Of a stretch of DNA of 64,000 bases, positions 12,638 to 20,956 are shown piece by piece. Both the position numbers and the translations under genes were made by a program. Positions within the stretch are counted from its first letter, which is position 1; each line of letters starts with the position of its first letter. This DNA comes from Streptantibioticus cattleyicolor NRRL 8057 = DSM 46488 (GTDB lineage Bacteria > Actinomycetota > Actinomycetes > Streptomycetales > Streptomycetaceae): assembly GCF_000240165.1 (NCBI RefSeq), contig NC_017585.1:992001-1056000 (forward strand). The letters run 5' to 3'. Under the pieces are notes generated by a model. It saw nothing but the letters and a program-made list of their open reading frames with translations, was not told the DNA's origin and ran no database searches.

Positions 12638-13688
12638 GGGATACCGCCTTGAGGACGTAGGAGTGGGGAGACACCGACGCTATGGCCCGGCACAGGGCGT
12701 CGGCAATGACGTCTACCATGCAGAAACCGACATCGTGGTTGCACGGCCGTTGGGGGGCGCGTGAACACCGTGGAACGACTGATCGTCATCGTTCTCTTCG
12801 AAGGCGTCGACCTGCTCGACGTCACGGGGCCGCCGGAGGTGTTCCATCTCGCGCGCCGTGAGACGGAGGAGGCGGCGGGGTACGGTGTGGTGCTCGCCGC
12901 CGAGACCATGGACCCTGTCGTCACCGCGGCCGGGGTCCGGGTGCTGCCCGACGTGACCTTCGAGGCGTTGTCGGCCAGGAGCGTCGACACGCTGATCGTG
13001 CCGGGCTCGGTCGAGGCGGACGGTGACCACCGGGTGCGCCCGCTGGTCGATCCGGCCGTGGTGAAGCGGGTGGCACAACTCGCGCCCCGCGCCCGGAGGG
13101 TCACCTCCGTCTGCGTCGGGGCGCACGTCCTCGCCGCCGCCGGGCTCCTGGACGGCAAACGGGCCACCACGCACTGGTCCACCGCGCGGCAACTCGAAGC
13201 CGACCACCCGGCGGTCGAGGTGGACGCCGACCCGATCTTCATCCGCGACGGGAACGTGTGGACCGGCGCGGGGATCAGCGCCTGTCTCGACCTGTCACTC
13301 GCCCTCATCGCCGACGACCTCGGCGAAGCGGTCGCACTCCGCGTCGCCCGGCAACTGGTGATGTACCTCAAACGGCCAAGCGGCCAGAGCCAGTTCAGCG
13401 TCCCGTTGGAACAGGTCGCCACGACCCGGCGCGTCGAGGAACTGCGCCACTACATCCTGCGCAACCTCGCCGCCCCGCTCACCGTCGCCCACCTCGCCGA
13501 ACACGCCCACGTCAGCGACCGGCACCTCACCCGGATCTTCAAGACCGAGCTGGGCACGACACCACACGCCTACATCGAGTCCGTCCGCGTCGAGCAGGCA
13601 CGCAACCAGCTGGAAACCACCGACGCCACCGTCGAGCGCGTCGCCACGGCGAACGGATTCGGCACCACCGACACCCGGCGGTTTCTAG

Positions 13689-14970
13689 GGGTCGTCGCAA
13701 CACGTGGTCGTGTTGATCAGGCCGCGAGCAGTTTATGCAGGCGCTCGGCTGGGGTTTCCCAGCCGAGCGTTTTGCGTGGGCGGCCGTTGAGTTCGGCAGC
13801 GACGGCGTGCAGGTGCTCGCGGGTGTGGACGGACAGGTCGGTGCCCTTGGGGAAGTACTGCCGCAGCAGGCCGTTGGTGTTCGCGTTGGAGCCGCGCTGC
13901 CAGGGGCTGGCCGGATCGCAGAAGTAGACCGGGATGTCGGTGGCGATGGTGAACGCGCCGTGCGCGGCCATCTCCGCGTCTTGGTCCCAGGTCAGCGAGC
14001 GCACCAGGTGGGCGGGCAGCGTCTGGACGGTGTCAGTCAGGGCGTCACGGACGTGCTCGGCGCTGCGGCCGTCGGGCAGGTGCAGGAGCATGACGTAGCG
14101 GGTGGCTCGTTCGACCAGGGTGCCGATGGCGGAGGCTCCGTCCTTGCCGATGATGAGGTCGCCCTCCCAGTGGCCGGGCACGGCCCGGTCTTCCGCCTCG
14201 GCGGGCCGTTCGCTGATCATCACCATGGGAGTGGAGAACCGCGGTTGGCGCTGCTGGGCCTGGCGGCGAGGCTTGCGCCGGGCGCGGCCGGTCCGCAGGG
14301 CGCGGGCCAGCTCGCGGCGCAGCTCTCCCCGGCCCTGGACATAGAGGGCCTGGTAGACCGTCTCGTGGACCACGTGCATCTCCGGCCGCTGGGGGAACTG
14401 TGCCCGCAGAGCCTGGCAGATCTGCTCGGGGCTCCACCGTAGATGCAGGCGATCCTGGATGAAGCGCCGCAGTTCGGGGTTCTGGCTGATCTTCCCCGGC
14501 TTGGGGCGGGGCCGGCGGGCATCGGCACGGGCCTGGGCTGCGTGTGGTCGGTACTGGCCGTTGCCCGGATGCCGGTTGCGGCGGATCTCGCGGCTGACGG
14601 TCGACGGGCTGCGGCCCAGCTCGGCCGCGATCGCCCGAACCGTGGCCTTCTCCCGCAGCCGGTCGGCGATGTAGATCCGGTCGTCCTCGCGCAGGTACCG
14701 GGACGGACCAGAAGGCGGCACCACCGCGTGGATCGGTGGCGCCGCCTTCTGCCGGCGGTCCGCGCTGCGGCCGTTCCGCCATCGCCGGCCGGTCTTCTCG
14801 TTGATACCGACGATCCGGCACGCCTCTTTGTTGCTCAGGCCCTGCTGCATGAGTTGGGAGTATGCCTCCCGCTCACGCAGCAGCTTCTTGGGCCCCTGAG
14901 CCACCGTCCGGATCTCCCGGATCTTGAAGTCCATCGCAGCATCCCCTGAACTGGGGTGTTGCGACGACCA
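13689..14970. mobile_element. IS30-family insertion sequence
   Basis: The 1,282-bp element has terminal inverted repeats GGTCGTCGCAACAC (left, from about 13690, and reversed at 14956-14969) and is flanked by the direct repeat CTAG (13685-13688 and 14971-14974), the target duplication. The neighbourhood GTTTCTAGAAC of the rejoined target is nearly palindromic, in keeping with IS30 preference for symmetric sites. It carries one transposase gene on the minus strand and interrupts an AraC-family gene. Confidence 0.9.
13717..14934 (-). CDS. IS30-family transposase with catalytic Glu replaced by Ala
   Basis: The 405-residue protein has the IS30 plan: an N-terminal helix-turn-helix (LSNKEACRIVGINEKTGRRW), a second one (ATVRAIAAELGRSPSTVSRE), then the DDE core. 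The Asp residues are in GHWEGDLIIGKDG and LVRSLTWDQDAEM. The conserved NENTNGLLRQYFPKGTDL motif reads NANTNG: residue 351 is Ala (codon GCG at 13882-13884 on the minus strand), exactly 33 residues after the second Asp, where the family has Glu. One base change (GAG to GCG) explains it. The enzyme is otherwise full length and is predicted to be unable to transpose. Confidence 0.92.
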   Translation of the reverse strand: MDFKIREIRTVAQGPKKLLREREAYSQLMQQGLSNKEACRIVGINEKTGRRWRNGRSADRRQKAAPPIHAVVPPSGPSRYLREDDRIYIADRLREKATVRAIAAELGRSPSTVSREIRRNRHPGNGQYRPHAAQARADARRPRPKPGKISQNPELRRFIQDRLHLRWSPEQICQALRAQFPQRPEMHVVHETVYQALYVQGRGELRRELARALRTGRARRKPRRQAQQRQPRFSTPMVMISERPAEAEDRAVPGHWEGDLIIGKDGASAIGTLVERATRYVMLLHLPDGRSAEHVRDALTDTVQTLPAHLVRSLTWDQDAEMAAHGAFTIATDIPVYFCDPASPWQRGSNANTNGLLRQYFPKGTDLSVHTREHLHAVAAELNGRPRKTLGWETPAERLHKLLAA

Positions 14971-15075
14971 CTAGAACGGAAGCCCTCGTCCGGGCCTTCC
15001 GCCGTCGGCTCGGCACGACACCGACCGAATACCGCCGCCGATTCCGTACCAGCCCCGTGGAGTGAGCGCCGCCGG

Positions 15076-15988: not shown

Positions 15989-16134
15989 CCCCCGTCCGCC
16001 GTCCCGGCGCCGTCGACGAACGCCGGGACGGCGGGAGGAGCCCCGGAGCACCGGGCCGGAAAAACCGGTTGCCCGGGGCCGAGAGGGCGCGAGATCATCA
16101 TCGGGTCGTTGCTGTCGCCCCCAGGAGTTAGCCG

Positions 16135-16302
16135 ATGCTCATTCGGAGCGTTCATCCGTCCACGCGGCCGTGCCCGGTCGCATCGACCACGAATGCTTCG
16201 GAGTATCCGCATGCCTACGCAGATCACCGCCCTCGCCGTCACCAAGGCATACCAGGGCCAGGTCGTGCTCGACTCGGTCACCTGCTCGCTCACCGAGGGT
16301 GA
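16135..16302 (+). promoter_or_regulatory. Possible leader ORF of the ABC-F gene
   Basis: AGGAG lies six bases before an ATG at 16135 that opens a 55-codon frame (MLIRSVHPSTRPCPVAS...) ending at TGA 16302, so it overlaps the ABC-F start at 16211 in another frame. The first codons are not GC3-biased, unlike real genes here. The ABC-F ribosome site (GGAG near 16200) falls within a small stem, ATGCT-TCGG-AGTAT. Ribosome-mediated attenuation by a leader peptide is known for several ABC-F and macrolide resistance genes; here it is an inference. Confidence 0.4.
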
Positions 16303-17833
16303 GCGCACCGGGATCATCGGGGAGAACGGTTCCGGCAAGACCACGCTGCTGCGCCTGCTCGCCGGACCGGAGCAGCCCGACAGCGGCGAGATCGTCCTCC
16401 ACGCCACCGGCGGCGTGGGCTACTTCGCCCAGGACGGCGAACTGCCGCCGCACGTCACCGTCGCGCAGGTCGTCGACCACGCCCTCGGCGAACTGCGCGC
16501 CGTCGAAGCCCGTCTGCGCGATCTCGAAGCGCGGATGGCCGACGGTGACACCTCGTCCCTGGCCGAGTACGGCGACCTGCTCACCGTCTTCGAGCTGCGT
16601 GGCGGCTACGAGGCCGACGCCCGCCTGGAGCGCGCCCTGCACGGGCTCGGCCTCGGCCACCTGCCCCGGGACCGTGTGGTCGGCGGGCTGTCCGGCGGCG
16701 AACAGGCACGGCTGCGGCTCGCCTGCGTCCTCGCGTCCGGCCCCGAGGTGCTGCTGCTGGACGAACCCACCAACCACCTCGACGCCTCCGCGCTCACCTG
16801 GCTGGAGACGTATCTGAGCACCCGGCGCGGCACCACGGTGGCGGTCTCCCACGACCGGGCCTTCCTGGAACACGTCACCACCACCTTGCTGGAGGTGGAC
16901 GCCGACCGCCGCCAGGTCTTCCGCTACGGCAACGGCTACGCCGGCTACCTCGCCGAGAAGGCGGCGGCCCGGCAGCGCTGGGCGCAGGCGTACGACGAGT
17001 GGCGGGCCGAGACCGACCGGCTGCGGGAGACGGCGGCCACCACCGCCCGCCGGGTCGCCCCCGGCCGGGCGATGACCGACCGCAACAAGATGGCGTACGG
17101 GCGGGCCGCCGGGCGCGTCCAGCAGTCCGTGGCGAGCCGGGTGCGCAACGCGGAGGAACGGCTGCGCCGGCTCCTCGCCGACCCGGTGCCGGCCCCGCCC
17201 GAACCGTTGCGGTTCACCGCGGCACCACGGCCGGCCGGAGACCCGCAAGGCGCCGTGCTCGACGCCGCCGCCATCACCGTCACCGGCCGCCTCGCCGCCA
17301 CCGACCTCACCGTCACGGCGGGGGAACGGGTGCTGATCACCGGGGCCAACGGCGCGGGCAAGACCACGTTGCTGCGGGTGCTCGCCGGTGAACTGGCCCC
17401 CGACGGCGGACGCGTGTCCCGGCGCGGCCGGATCGGCTACCTGTCCCAGGAGCCGCCCCCCGGCCGCCCCGGCGAGACGCTGCTCGCGGCGTTCGCCCGC
17501 GGCCGGGCCGGTACCGCCGAGGAACACGCCGAACGGCTGCTCGCCCTCGGCCTGTTCACCGCCGACCGGTTCGACACCCCGGTCACCCGGCTCTCCACCG
17601 GTCAGCGGCAGCGCCTCGCCCTGGCCCGGCTGGTCACCGCGCCCGCCGACGTCCTGCTGCTGGACGAGCCGACCAACCACCTCTCCCCGGCCCTGGTCGA
17701 GGAGTTGGAGGAGGCCCTGGCCGGGTTCCCGGGCGCGCTGGTGGTGGTCAGCCACGACCGCAGGCTGCGGGAACGCTGGCGCGGCAGCCGGGTGGAGCTG
17801 GCGGACAGCGGTACCGCCGCACTGCGGATGTGA
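16211..17833 (+). CDS. ABC-F ribosomal protection-type protein
   Basis: The 540-residue protein has two ABC ATPase domains and no membrane segment, the ABC-F plan. The first has GIIGENGSGKTT, LSGGEQARLRLA and LLLDEPTNHLD; the second has LITGANGAGKTT, LSTGQRQRLALA and LLLDEPTNHLS. A charged linker of about 80 residues between them (YDEWRAETDRLRETAATTAR, AGRVQQSVASRVRNAEERLR) is the interdomain arm that reaches the ribosome in resistance members. The start at 16211 gives an intact first domain. The next gene is a virginiamycin B lyase 61 bases downstream, so streptogramin A/lincosamide/pleuromutilin-type protection is the best guess. Confidence 0.88.
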   Translation: MPTQITALAVTKAYQGQVVLDSVTCSLTEGERTGIIGENGSGKTTLLRLLAGPEQPDSGEIVLHATGGVGYFAQDGELPPHVTVAQVVDHALGELRAVEARLRDLEARMADGDTSSLAEYGDLLTVFELRGGYEADARLERALHGLGLGHLPRDRVVGGLSGGEQARLRLACVLASGPEVLLLDEPTNHLDASALTWLETYLSTRRGTTVAVSHDRAFLEHVTTTLLEVDADRRQVFRYGNGYAGYLAEKAAARQRWAQAYDEWRAETDRLRETAATTARRVAPGRAMTDRNKMAYGRAAGRVQQSVASRVRNAEERLRRLLADPVPAPPEPLRFTAAPRPAGDPQGAVLDAAAITVTGRLAATDLTVTAGERVLITGANGAGKTTLLRVLAGELAPDGGRVSRRGRIGYLSQEPPPGRPGETLLAAFARGRAGTAEEHAERLLALGLFTADRFDTPVTRLSTGQRQRLALARLVTAPADVLLLDEPTNHLSPALVEELEEALAGFPGALVVVSHDRRLRERWRGSRVELADSGTAALRM

Positions 17834-17894
17834 CACCACCGTCCCCACCGAAGCTGACGTTGTGTCAGCGTGCTCGGAACACACAGCAAGGAGC

Positions 17895-18800
17895 ATGGAA
17901 TTGCGGCCAGTTGTCCCCGCCATCACGCGTTTCCCGGTCGCCGACGCGGCGGCCGGTCCGTACGCGATCGCCGCGGGTCCGGACGGCGCGTTGTGGTTCA
18001 CCCTGGTGCACGCGGGGGCGATCGGCCGCCTGACCACCGACGGCCGGGTCGACCGGTTCCCGCTGGACTCCGCGTCCTGCGGGCCCTCGGTCATCACGTC
18101 GGGGCCGGACGGGGCGCTGTGGTTCACCCGTTCCCGGGACCACCGCGTGGGGCGGATCACGGTCACCGGTGACGTCACCTCGTTCGCCGTGCCCAGCGCC
18201 GACTGCGGTCCGTTCGGGATCGCCGCGGGCGCTGACGGGGCGCTGTGGTTCACGCAGATGCACACCGACCGGATCGGCCGCGTCACCACCGACGGCCGGG
18301 TGACGGAGTTCCCGCTGCCGGTCCGCGGGGCGTTCCCGTCGGCGATCACGGCCGGTCCGGACGGCGCGTTGTGGTTCACCCTCAACCAGGCCGGAGCCGT
18401 CGGTCGGATCGCGCTCGACGGCACCGCCACCGTCCACCCGCTCCCCACCCCGGGCGCCGGACCGGTCGGCATCACGTGCGGTGCGGACGGCGCCCTGTGG
18501 TTCGTCGAGATCGGCGCCGGCCAGGTGGGGCGGATCACCACGGACGGCGAGGTCACCGAGTTCCCGCTGCCCGACCGCGCCGCCCGGCCGCACGCCATCA
18601 CCGCCGCCCCCGACGGCACCTGCTGGCTCACCGAGTGGGGCGCCAACCGCGTCGCCGCCGTCTCCCCGGACGGCGGCGTGCGCGAGTACGATCTGCCCGC
18701 CCCCGGCTCCGAACCCCACGGCCTGGCCATCGGGCAGGACGGCGCGCTCTACGTGGCGCTGGAGACCGGGGAGATCGTCCGCCTCACGGGGCTCAGTTGA
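17895..18800 (+). CDS. vgb: Virginiamycin B lyase (streptogramin B lyase)
   Basis: The 301-residue protein is a seven-bladed propeller in which the pattern GPDGALWFT recurs in each blade, and it matches the 299-residue Vgb family. Residues His233 (RPHAI), His275 (EPHGLAIG) and Glu290 (YVALE) occupy the positions of the lyase's catalytic His228, His270 and Glu284. The enzyme linearises streptogramin B antibiotics by Mg2+-dependent elimination at the ester bond. AGGAG lies four bases before the ATG, and it follows the ABC-F gene, so the two probably form one operon. Its end overlaps the convergent reductase by eight bases. Some Vgb-like chromosomal propellers lack lyase activity. Confidence 0.85.
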   Translation: MELRPVVPAITRFPVADAAAGPYAIAAGPDGALWFTLVHAGAIGRLTTDGRVDRFPLDSASCGPSVITSGPDGALWFTRSRDHRVGRITVTGDVTSFAVPSADCGPFGIAAGADGALWFTQMHTDRIGRVTTDGRVTEFPLPVRGAFPSAITAGPDGALWFTLNQAGAVGRIALDGTATVHPLPTPGAGPVGITCGADGALWFVEIGAGQVGRITTDGEVTEFPLPDRAARPHAITAAPDGTCWLTEWGANRVAAVSPDGGVREYDLPAPGSEPHGLAIGQDGALYVALETGEIVRLTGLS

Positions 18801-19617
18801 ACGTGTCCGGATCCGGGCCGGTGCGCAAGGCCCGGTCGAGGCCGGCGACGGCGTCGAGGTCGGCGGGGGAGAGGTCGAAGCCGAACACGTCGAGGTTCTG
18901 CCGGATCCGCGCCGGGGTGACCGACTTGGGGATGACCACGTTGCCCGACTGGAGGTGCCAGCGCAGGACGACCTGGGCGGGGGTGCGGCCGAGGCGGGCG
19001 GCGATGTCGGTGATCGCCGGGTCGTCGAGCACGGCGCCCTGGGCGAGCGGGCTCCACGCCTCGGTGACGATGCCGTGCGCGGCGTGGAAGGCACGCAGTT
19101 CCCGCTGCTGGAGGCCGGGGTGGAGCTCGACCTGGTTGACGGCGGGGACGATGCCGGAGGTGTCCAACAGCCGCTCCAGATGGGCGGGTTGGAAGTTGGA
19201 GACGCCGATCGCCCGGGTGCGCCCGTCGGCCAGCAGCCTCTCCAGCGCCCGCCAGGTGTCGGGGTAGCTGTCCCGGGCCGGGGTGGGCCAGTGGATCAGG
19301 TACAGGTCGAGGTGGTCCAGGCCCAGCTTGGCCAGCGAGGCGTCGAACGCCCGCAGCGTGGCGTCGTAGCCGTGGTCCGCGTTCCACACCTTGGTGGTGA
19401 CGAACAGCTCCTCGCGCGGCACCCCGGAGGCGGCCAGGGCGCGGCCCACGCCGGCCTCGTTGCCGTAGACGGCGGCGGTGTCGACGCTGCGGTAACCGGC
19501 CTGGAGGGCGGCGGTGACCGCGGCGGTGGTCTCCTCGTCGGGGACCTGGAAGACACCGAAGCCGAGCTGCGGCATGGTGACGCCGTTGTTGAGGGTGACG
19601 TGGGGGACGGGGGACAT
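18793..19617 (-). CDS. Aldo-keto reductase (2,5-diketo-gluconate reductase-like)
   Basis: The 274-residue protein is a standard AKR barrel: LNNGVTMPQLGFGVFQV, GYRSVDTAAVYGNE (Asp and Tyr), FVTTKVWN (Lys), DLYLIHWPTP (His), and the NADPH-binding end VIPKSVTPARIRQN. All four catalytic residues are present. It resembles the AKR5 group, which reduces ketoses and other carbonyls. The start at 19617 was chosen by family alignment; the longer upstream frame is Pro/Arg-rich shadow. It is convergent with vgb. Confidence 0.9.
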   Translation of the reverse strand: MSPVPHVTLNNGVTMPQLGFGVFQVPDEETTAAVTAALQAGYRSVDTAAVYGNEAGVGRALAASGVPREELFVTTKVWNADHGYDATLRAFDASLAKLGLDHLDLYLIHWPTPARDSYPDTWRALERLLADGRTRAIGVSNFQPAHLERLLDTSGIVPAVNQVELHPGLQQRELRAFHAAHGIVTEAWSPLAQGAVLDDPAITDIAARLGRTPAQVVLRWHLQSGNVVIPKSVTPARIRQNLDVFGFDLSPADLDAVAGLDRALRTGPDPDTFN

Positions 19618-19723
19618 TCCGGTTCTCCTTCGGTGGTGCCGACTCCGGGGTGCGGGTCGCGGGTGCCCGGCCGGTGCGCGGGGTTCCGCGCCGGATCCGG
19701 CCGGACGGCTACGAGGCCCGGGG

Positions 19724-20956
19724 TCAGTGGCGGGCGCCGGAGGTGACGGGGGTGTCGGCGGACGGCCGGGGGAGGGGCGTTCCGCCGGCGACGACGCGCT
19801 CCCCGTGGTGGCCGGCGCGGCGCTCCAGCAGGGTGGAGACCACGGCAAGGCCCAGCGCGGAGGCGGCCATCAGCGCGCCGACCCAGTTGGGCGCGGTGTA
19901 GCCGAGCCCGGCGGAGATCACCACGCCGCCCAGCCAGGCCGCCAGCGCGTTACCGGCGTTGAAGGCACCGATGTTGGCGGCCGAGGCCAGCGTCGGAGCG
20001 CCGTGCGCCTGGTCGAGGACGCGCTTCTGGAGCGGCGGCACGGTGGCGAAGCCGAGGGCGCCGACCAGGAAGACGGCGACCGCGGAGGCGATCTTGTCGT
20101 GGGCGCCGACGGTGAAGAGCGCCAGCACCACGGCGAGGCCGGTGAACGCGGTGTAGAGCATGGCCATCAGCCGCCGGTCGGCGAACTTGCCGCCGAGCAG
20201 GTTGCCGGCCACCATGCCCGCGCCGAAGAGGACCATCAGCCAGGTCACCGAGGAGTCGGCGTAGCCGGCCACCCCGGTCATCATCGGGGCGATGTAGGTG
20301 ATGGCGGCGAAGACCCCGCCGAAGCCGAGCACGGTCATCGCCATGGCGAGCAGCACCTGGAGGTTCTTGAACGCCGCCAGTTCGTGGCGCAGCCGTACGC
20401 CCTGCGGCTTGGGCACGTCGGGCACCAGCTTGGCGACACCGGCCAGACCGACCACGCCGAGCGCGGCGACGACGAGGAAGGTCACCCGCCAGCCGGCGCT
20501 CTGGCCGACGAAGGTGCCCAGCGGTACGCCGACCACGTTGGCGATGGTGAGCCCGGTGAACATCATCGAGATCGCGCCCGCCTTCTTCTCCGGCGCGACC
20601 AGTTCGGCGGCGACCACCGAGCCGATGCCGAAGAAGGCGCCGTGGGCCAGCGAGGCGACGATCCGGCCGAGCAGCATCACCGCGAAGACCGGGGCCACCG
20701 CGGAGAGCACGTTGCCCACCACGAAGAGCCCCATCAGCAGCATGAGCATCCGCTTGCGGGAGATCTTGGTGCCGAGCACCGTCATCAGCGGGGCGCCGAT
20801 GACGACGCCGAGCGCGTAGCCAGTGACCAGGAGGCCGGCGGTGGGCACCGAGACCCCGAAGTCGCCGGCGACCTCGGGCAGCAGGCCCATGATCAGGAAT
20901 TCGGTGGTGCCGATCCCGAAGGCCCCGATCGCGAGGGCCAGGAGCGCGAGTGGCAT
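19724..20956 (-). CDS. MFS drug-efflux-type transporter (DHA1)
   Basis: The 410-residue protein has 12 hydrophobic segments and DHA1 motifs: FGIGTTEFLIMGLLPEVAGD in helix 1, GAPLMTVLGTKISRKRML between helices 2 and 3 (motif A), and GWRVTFLVVA after helix 5. It is close to AraJ/YdhP and the chloramphenicol exporters Cmx/CmlR. It is divergent from a MarR gene across 234 bases containing an ACAATAATTGT palindrome, so efflux is probably induced by the substrate of that regulator. The substrate cannot be named. Confidence 0.9.
   Translation of the reverse strand: MPLALLALAIGAFGIGTTEFLIMGLLPEVAGDFGVSVPTAGLLVTGYALGVVIGAPLMTVLGTKISRKRMLMLLMGLFVVGNVLSAVAPVFAVMLLGRIVASLAHGAFFGIGSVVAAELVAPEKKAGAISMMFTGLTIANVVGVPLGTFVGQSAGWRVTFLVVAALGVVGLAGVAKLVPDVPKPQGVRLRHELAAFKNLQVLLAMAMTVLGFGGVFAAITYIAPMMTGVAGYADSSVTWLMVLFGAGMVAGNLLGGKFADRRLMAMLYTAFTGLAVVLALFTVGAHDKIASAVAVFLVGALGFATVPPLQKRVLDQAHGAPTLASAANIGAFNAGNALAAWLGGVVISAGLGYTAPNWVGALMAASALGLAVVSTLLERRAGHHGERVVAGGTPLPRPSADTPVTSGARH

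Follow-up and report, generated by a model that had tools for sequence, protein, structure and literature searches.

An ABC-F/Vgb gene pair on the megaplasmid pSCAT: a probable inducible resistance unit with a candidate attenuator leader

The ARE4 group of ABC-F proteins has been associated with resistance to 14- and 16-membered macrolides (PMC6723617, Table 1) or with macrolide plus streptogramin B resistance (PMC10201436). In the published ARE summaries ARE5 (LmrC, VarM) is the actinobacterial lincosamide/streptogramin A group (PMC6723617, PMC10201436). Control by attenuators is known for the ABC-F genes lmrC, tiaA, are5sc (ARE5), msrD, vmlR and cplR (PMC8546547, PMC12421871, PMC10314930, PMC10201436), and an MLV-like leader has been reported for are5sc (PMC12421871). 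The WblC regulon of S. coelicolor includes vgb (PMC7157823).

We analysed a locus at which an ABC-F gene is followed by a gene for a virginiamycin B lyase (Vgb), in a 64-kb stretch of DNA referred to here as the window. A preliminary description, made from this sequence, proposed that the two genes could together resist both streptogramin components and that they might be a chromosomal ancestor of vga/vgb pairs or a self-resistance relic. The view of the two products as resistance-type proteins forming a conserved unit stood up to analysis; the coverage of streptogramins A and B, the chromosomal location, the ancestry and the relic did not.

The two genes and their location

Both ORFs were found where the preliminary description had placed them, intact and on the same strand (Table 1). 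The ORF list of the window gives 540 aa for the ABC-F protein, and vgb, starting after a gap of 61 nt, encodes 301 aa. The ribosome-binding site is GGAG (16200-16203) for the ABC-F gene and AAGGAG (17888-17893) for vgb. If translation began at another in-frame ATG, at 16193, the ABC-F protein would be 6 residues longer.

Table 1. Features of the ABC-F/vgb locus (positions in the window)
Feature	Position	Strand	Basis or detail
WblC/WhiB7-like promoter motif	16060..16098	+	AAAAAC 16060-16065, CGG, TTGCCC (-35) 16069-16074, 18-nt spacer, GATCAT (-10) 16093-16098
Conserved leader RNA element (model R1)	16121..16222	+	89 bits, E 4e-20 in host genome; held-out relatives found
Upstream ORF (uORF), 55 codons (MLIRSVHP...)	16135..16302	+	92-nt overlap with the ABC-F gene start, in a different frame; ribosome-binding site AGGAG 16123-16127
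Predicted hairpin arm 1 (uORF codons 3-7)	16142..16153	+	comparative structure; single-sequence fold
Predicted inner hairpin	16164..16181	+	GCGGCC (16164-16169)/GGTCGC (16176-16181); 89-91% of cells paired, 28 leaders
Predicted hairpin arm 2	16191..16202	+	contains most of the ABC-F Shine-Dalgarno (GGAG 16200-16203); helix 24-35 x 88-100
ABC-F ATPase, ARE4-like (TlrC/CarA/OleB/SrmB group)	16211..17833	+	NF000171 676.6 bits; tree placement; ATPase motifs
Virginiamycin B lyase (Vgb)	17895..18800	+	PF24684 482 bits; PDB 2z2p/2qc5/2z2n; active-site residues Y23, H233, E273, H275

Both ATPase domains of the ABC-F protein are complete, and each retains its Walker A (at 37 and 378), signature (160 and 461) and H-loop (213 and 514) motif. 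An interdomain linker is present and a membrane domain absent, which fits the ARE4 architecture. The best NCBIfam model was NF000171 (TlrC/CarA/OleB/SrmB), and as the score lies under the curated cut-off of 800 bits we termed the protein ARE4-like. Other curated models scored much lower (Msr, 213 bits; Vga, 194.6 bits with a cut-off of 725). The ABC-Fs of other pairs scored 605-668 bits on NF000171, and the two nearest ABC-F paralogs of the host scored 286 and 269 bits. The ABC-F tree placed the pair proteins in one region with proteins scoring 680-786 on NF000171 and the paralogs far away; it contained no characterised ARE4 sequence, and ARE4 membership here means nearest model plus tree position. 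On this basis the window ABC-F is classed as ARE4-like; the known ARE4 proteins confer protection from macrolides and streptogramin B. Assignment to Vga (ARE1-type) was ruled out by the model scores (195 bits, compared with 677 for NF000171).

Residues 9-297 of the second protein matched the Pfam family PF24684 (Vgb_lyase; cut-off 50 bits) over profile positions 2-290 of 290, and the solved Vgb structures matched it at E values of 1e-84 to 5e-81. The active-site residues Y18, H228, E268 and H270 of VgbA correspond to Y23, H233, E273 and H275 of the window Vgb and were invariant in 99/99 related Vgbs. The propeller with its catalytic residues noted in the preliminary description was thereby confirmed. 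Family match and active-site residues identify the protein as a Vgb, for which opening of the streptogramin B ring is the predicted activity.

A tblastn search of plasmid records matched both proteins at 100% to pSCAT, a linear megaplasmid of 1.81 Mb in Streptantibioticus cattleyicolor NRRL 8057 = DSM 46488. Of the two contigs that make up the host genome, the one of 1.81 Mb contains the window, so the pair is not chromosomal as had been supposed. Further pairs were plasmid-borne in Streptomyces sp. NBC_01361, S. xanthii, NBC_01445 and NBC_00158. Immediately downstream, the opposite strand (18793-20956) carries an aldo-keto reductase gene and an MFS gene for Cmx/CmrA-like chloramphenicol efflux (344 bits against a cut-off of 400), the latter 0.9 kb from the pair. 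With the pair they appear to make a small resistance-type gene cluster. An IS30-family element at 12761-15066 (transposase 13717-14934; 14-bp inverted ends GGTCGTCGCAACAC/GTGTTGCGACGACC; CTAG flanking both sides) splits an AraC/DJ-1-type regulator gene, whose missing C-terminal codons are found beyond the element.

Conservation of the pair

The host genus holds a single genome; the comparison was made over 395 genomes of the family, with ABC-F occurrence scored by a linker-fragment search. Vgb was present in 122 genomes, the ABC-F lineage in 66 and both in 45, with an odds ratio for co-occurrence of 7.0 (3.9 after removing linked genomes). The two genes were adjacent in 20/395 genomes. Their order was always ABC-F then Vgb on one strand, and this adjacency is therefore not attributable to chance. 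Most Vgb genes (in ~100 of the 122 genomes) had no neighbouring ABC-F. Outside the family the pair was present in Streptosporangium and Plantactinospora; its conservation in other actinomycetes, which the preliminary description had left to be checked, is thus established. Pairing was clustered on the Vgb tree (9 changes, compared with ~24.5 when shuffled), with several gains or losses still needed. ABC-F and Vgb distances among the pairs were correlated (Mantel r 0.73, 0/5000), as would also result from shared species history.

Tighter linkage was seen in two relatives: in S. sedi (L103:4321-6885) ABC-F and Vgb form a single 854-aa ORF with a Pro/Ala-rich joint and the same upstream leader, and in NBC_01361 the annotated ABC-F and vgb genes overlap. 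In Parafrankia colletiae (L096:860-1130) vgb is preceded by a TetR gene, a palindrome resembling the operator, a match resembling the leader and a short piece of an ABC-F C-terminus (VGYLFLVSHDRALR), which we read as the scar of a lost ABC-F. The ABC-F gene and vgb probably form a conserved unit, presumably co-transcribed.

Some loci departed from the basic arrangement. The ABC-F beside vgb in Streptomyces radiopugnans (L045:5200-5919) is cut to 239 aa, apparently via recombination between two DEPTNHL-coding repeats, and its vgb is intact. On two Streptomyces plasmids (L192:8680-10335 and L195:8613-10259) a second, different ABC-F gene follows vgb in convergent orientation and has a TTGCTCGTCTGA (MLV-stop) leader. 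This leader resembles the one reported for the ARE5 gene are5sc, and such loci may confer resistance to macrolides and to both streptogramins, B and A, at once.

Leader RNA, promoter and regulator

Alignment of the regions upstream of 26 ABC-F genes revealed strong conservation outside the genes. All of the 28 leaders compared contained a uORF with its own ribosome-binding site, which overlapped the ABC-F start by 35-116 nt and in 25/28 was offset from the ABC-F frame by 1 mod 3. Codons 3-7 of the uORF pair with the ABC-F ribosome-binding site, a helix that RNAalifold proposed unaided. Compensatory changes were found in 10 of the 13 RNAalifold-predicted pairs, and in helix 24-35 x 88-100 89% of cells were paired, with both-side changes in six pairs. 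For the named leader structure 87% of cells were paired, compared with 27-47% after shifts of 1-3 columns; none of 500 shuffles reached its covariation score (0.194 vs 0.149). Since the stability of the window leader folded alone was not unusual (z -0.66), this comparative evidence was used. A covariance model recovered the held-out leaders L216, L192 and L196 at E values of 4e-26 to 2e-19. The window leader, whose sequence was in the training set, was the only strong match of model R1 in the 8.1-Mb host genome. No Rfam family matched the leader. Conservation of the uORF amino acids was inseparable from base pairing. With a uORF that has its own ribosome-binding site and a covariation-supported hairpin predicted to bury the ABC-F site, the leader is a candidate ribosome-mediated attenuator that would act through stalling. 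Unpaired ABC-F genes carry the leader too; it therefore belongs to the ABC-F, and the presence of Vgb is left unexplained by it. In one subgroup of pairs (L158, L160-L168) the leader was plainly distinct: its uORFs were for the most part shorter and ended in a stop, and the ribosome-binding site was CTGGAGCC.

The WblC/WhiB7 consensus GAAAWY-N3-TKGMNN-N16..19-TANNNT was taken from PMC7157823. An exact scan of the window with this consensus gave no match. The promoter motif in Table 1 fits 11/13 consensus positions, and 260 shuffled upstream regions never rose above 10. Most related ABC-F genes had the same -35 element ~150 nt upstream.

A divergent TetR-family gene (PF00440 + PF16859) adjoined the ABC-F gene in 38 of the 46 related loci examined. 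The TetR loci carry a palindrome, TTAAYGC-N9..10-GCRTTAA, where transcription should start. TetR gene and palindromic operator were both absent at the window locus. The host's nearest TetR, at C1:695 kb on the same megaplasmid (L215/L211, G000:C1:695052-695450), is a broken fragment that lies ~313 kb from the window copy and is 68% identical over residues 101-236. Palindromes were weaker at loci without TetR (P = 1.3e-4 with a palindromic score designed after seeing the data; P = 0.055 with the first, non-palindromic score). The sequences indicate that the window copy lost its TetR regulator and operator, the distant fragment being the apparent relic of the regulator.

Interpretation and comparison with known systems

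We consider it probable (roughly 60%) that the two genes make up a resistance unit, inducible by antibiotics and directed against ribosomal exit-tunnel drugs, i.e. macrolides and streptogramin B. This reading is directly supported by the gene content, the conservation of the unit, the leader, the hairpin covariation, the overlapping uORF and the promoter-like motif, and we infer co-transcription, stalling, induction and the drug specificity of the pair. Drug stress would activate the WblC/WhiB7-type promoter and yield one transcript for both genes. In the absence of drug, the beginning of the uORF would pair with the ABC-F ribosome-binding site and keep it buried in the hairpin, and ribosomes translating the uORF would pass over the ABC-F start. 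A drug-bound ribosome stalled early in the uORF would hold arm 1 and free the ABC-F ribosome-binding site, so that both proteins could be made. The ARE4-type ABC-F would then dislodge drug from the tunnel, and Vgb, translated from the shared transcript, would open the streptogramin B ring and thereby prevent rebinding. Because the ABC-F is ARE4-like and not Vga-like, both members of the pair probably act against tunnel-binding drugs instead of dividing streptogramins A and B between them; two hits on one drug-binding region are most likely. A bolder version, which we hold to be doubtful, is an ancient shared ARE4 ABC-F/Vgb machine that protects and destroys, acting on tunnel-bound streptogramin B. 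Drug released from the ribosome would meet the lyase at once, with the single polypeptide of S. sedi as the extreme case, and control would lie with the start-overlapping uORF whose codons mask the ribosome-binding site and with the WblC-like promoter, joined in relatives by a drug-sensing TetR.

Streptogramins work as A+B pairs, and an ABC-F protecting against streptogramin A (with lincosamides and pleuromutilins) next to a Vgb acting on streptogramin B would cover both halves. Sequence is a poor guide to the drug spectrum of an ABC-F, and an A+B set may exist on the two Streptomyces plasmids, where the convergent second ABC-F has an MLV-like leader as does the ARE5 gene are5sc (PMC12421871). 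The ABC-F of the pair itself is, however, ARE4-like and not ARE5 or Vga, and the window holds no second ABC-F beside the pair. Its scores (NF000171, 677 bits; Vga, 195; Msr, 213) point to a group assigned to macrolides (PMC6723617) or macrolides plus streptogramin B (PMC10201436), and the streptogramin A protection proposed earlier is not supported. We regard joint cover of A and B as unlikely. Descent of vga/vgb pairs from this one also finds no support: the window Vgb is ~43% identical to Vgb(A), the ABC-F falls outside the Vga family, and vgb(A) adjoins vat(A) on one Enterococcus plasmid.

It is improbable, in our judgement, that the pair consists of two independently useful genes under one promoter in an accessory region of resistance genes, their linkage maintained by horizontal transfer with no special connection in drug spectrum. 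Such an origin would suit the megaplasmid location, the other plasmid-borne pairs, the nearby Cmx/CmrA-like efflux gene and the unpaired state of most Vgbs. Fixed order and strand, overlap or fusion, matching divergence and retention across several actinomycete families suggest instead selection for the combination. A self-resistance relic from a lost streptogramin or macrolide biosynthetic cluster, as suggested in the preliminary description, would agree with the nearest ABC-F family model having been built from producers' self-resistance proteins. The 64-kb window contains no NRPS/PKS-sized ORF, however; the unit occurs in many species with differing neighbours, and leader and TetR suggest drug sensing rather than cluster control, all of which makes a relic very hard to credit.

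Taken singly, the components of the locus (an ARE4 ABC-F, a Vgb, attenuation and WblC control) belong to types already described. The two-gene arrangement and the RNA switch appear previously undescribed: the literature searched, which covered few subscription papers, yielded no ABC-F/vgb combination, no start-overlapping uORF masking a ribosome-binding site, no ABC-F-Vgb fusion and no comparable ARE4 leader. If the inducible tunnel-drug unit is real, it links target protection and drug destruction across actinomycete plasmids and chromosomes, and the macrolide-type ARE4 group gains a testable attenuator, as known for other ABC-F groups. An ABC-F near a Vgb, tempting as that reading is, need not imply cover of streptogramins A and B.

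The window ABC-F resembles TlrC, CarA, OleB and SrmB, by far the nearest curated family, in its two ATPase domains and lack of a membrane domain. It differs in scoring below the family cut-off, in having no macrolide cluster beside it and in being followed by vgb. The window Vgb shares with Vgb(A) and Vgb(B) the full-length propeller match and the four active-site residues, but at the above identity to Vgb(A) it belongs to an actinobacterial lineage, and its partner is an ARE4-like ABC-F rather than vat. The staphylococcal and enterococcal vat-vgb and vga sets also place streptogramin-type resistance genes side by side, whereas the one Enterococcus plasmid examined has vgb(A) with vat(A) and no annotated ARE4 ABC-F. 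As in lmrC, tiaA, are5sc, msrD, vmlR and cplR, an upstream ORF and a leader structure would control the ABC-F gene, and a buried ribosome-binding site is also found in cplR. In contrast to these genes, the uORF here is long (39-63 codons) and extends past the ABC-F start in every one of the 28 leaders. The arm predicted to bury the ABC-F ribosome-binding site consists of uORF codons, and the gene is ARE4-like and lies in a putative operon with vgb.
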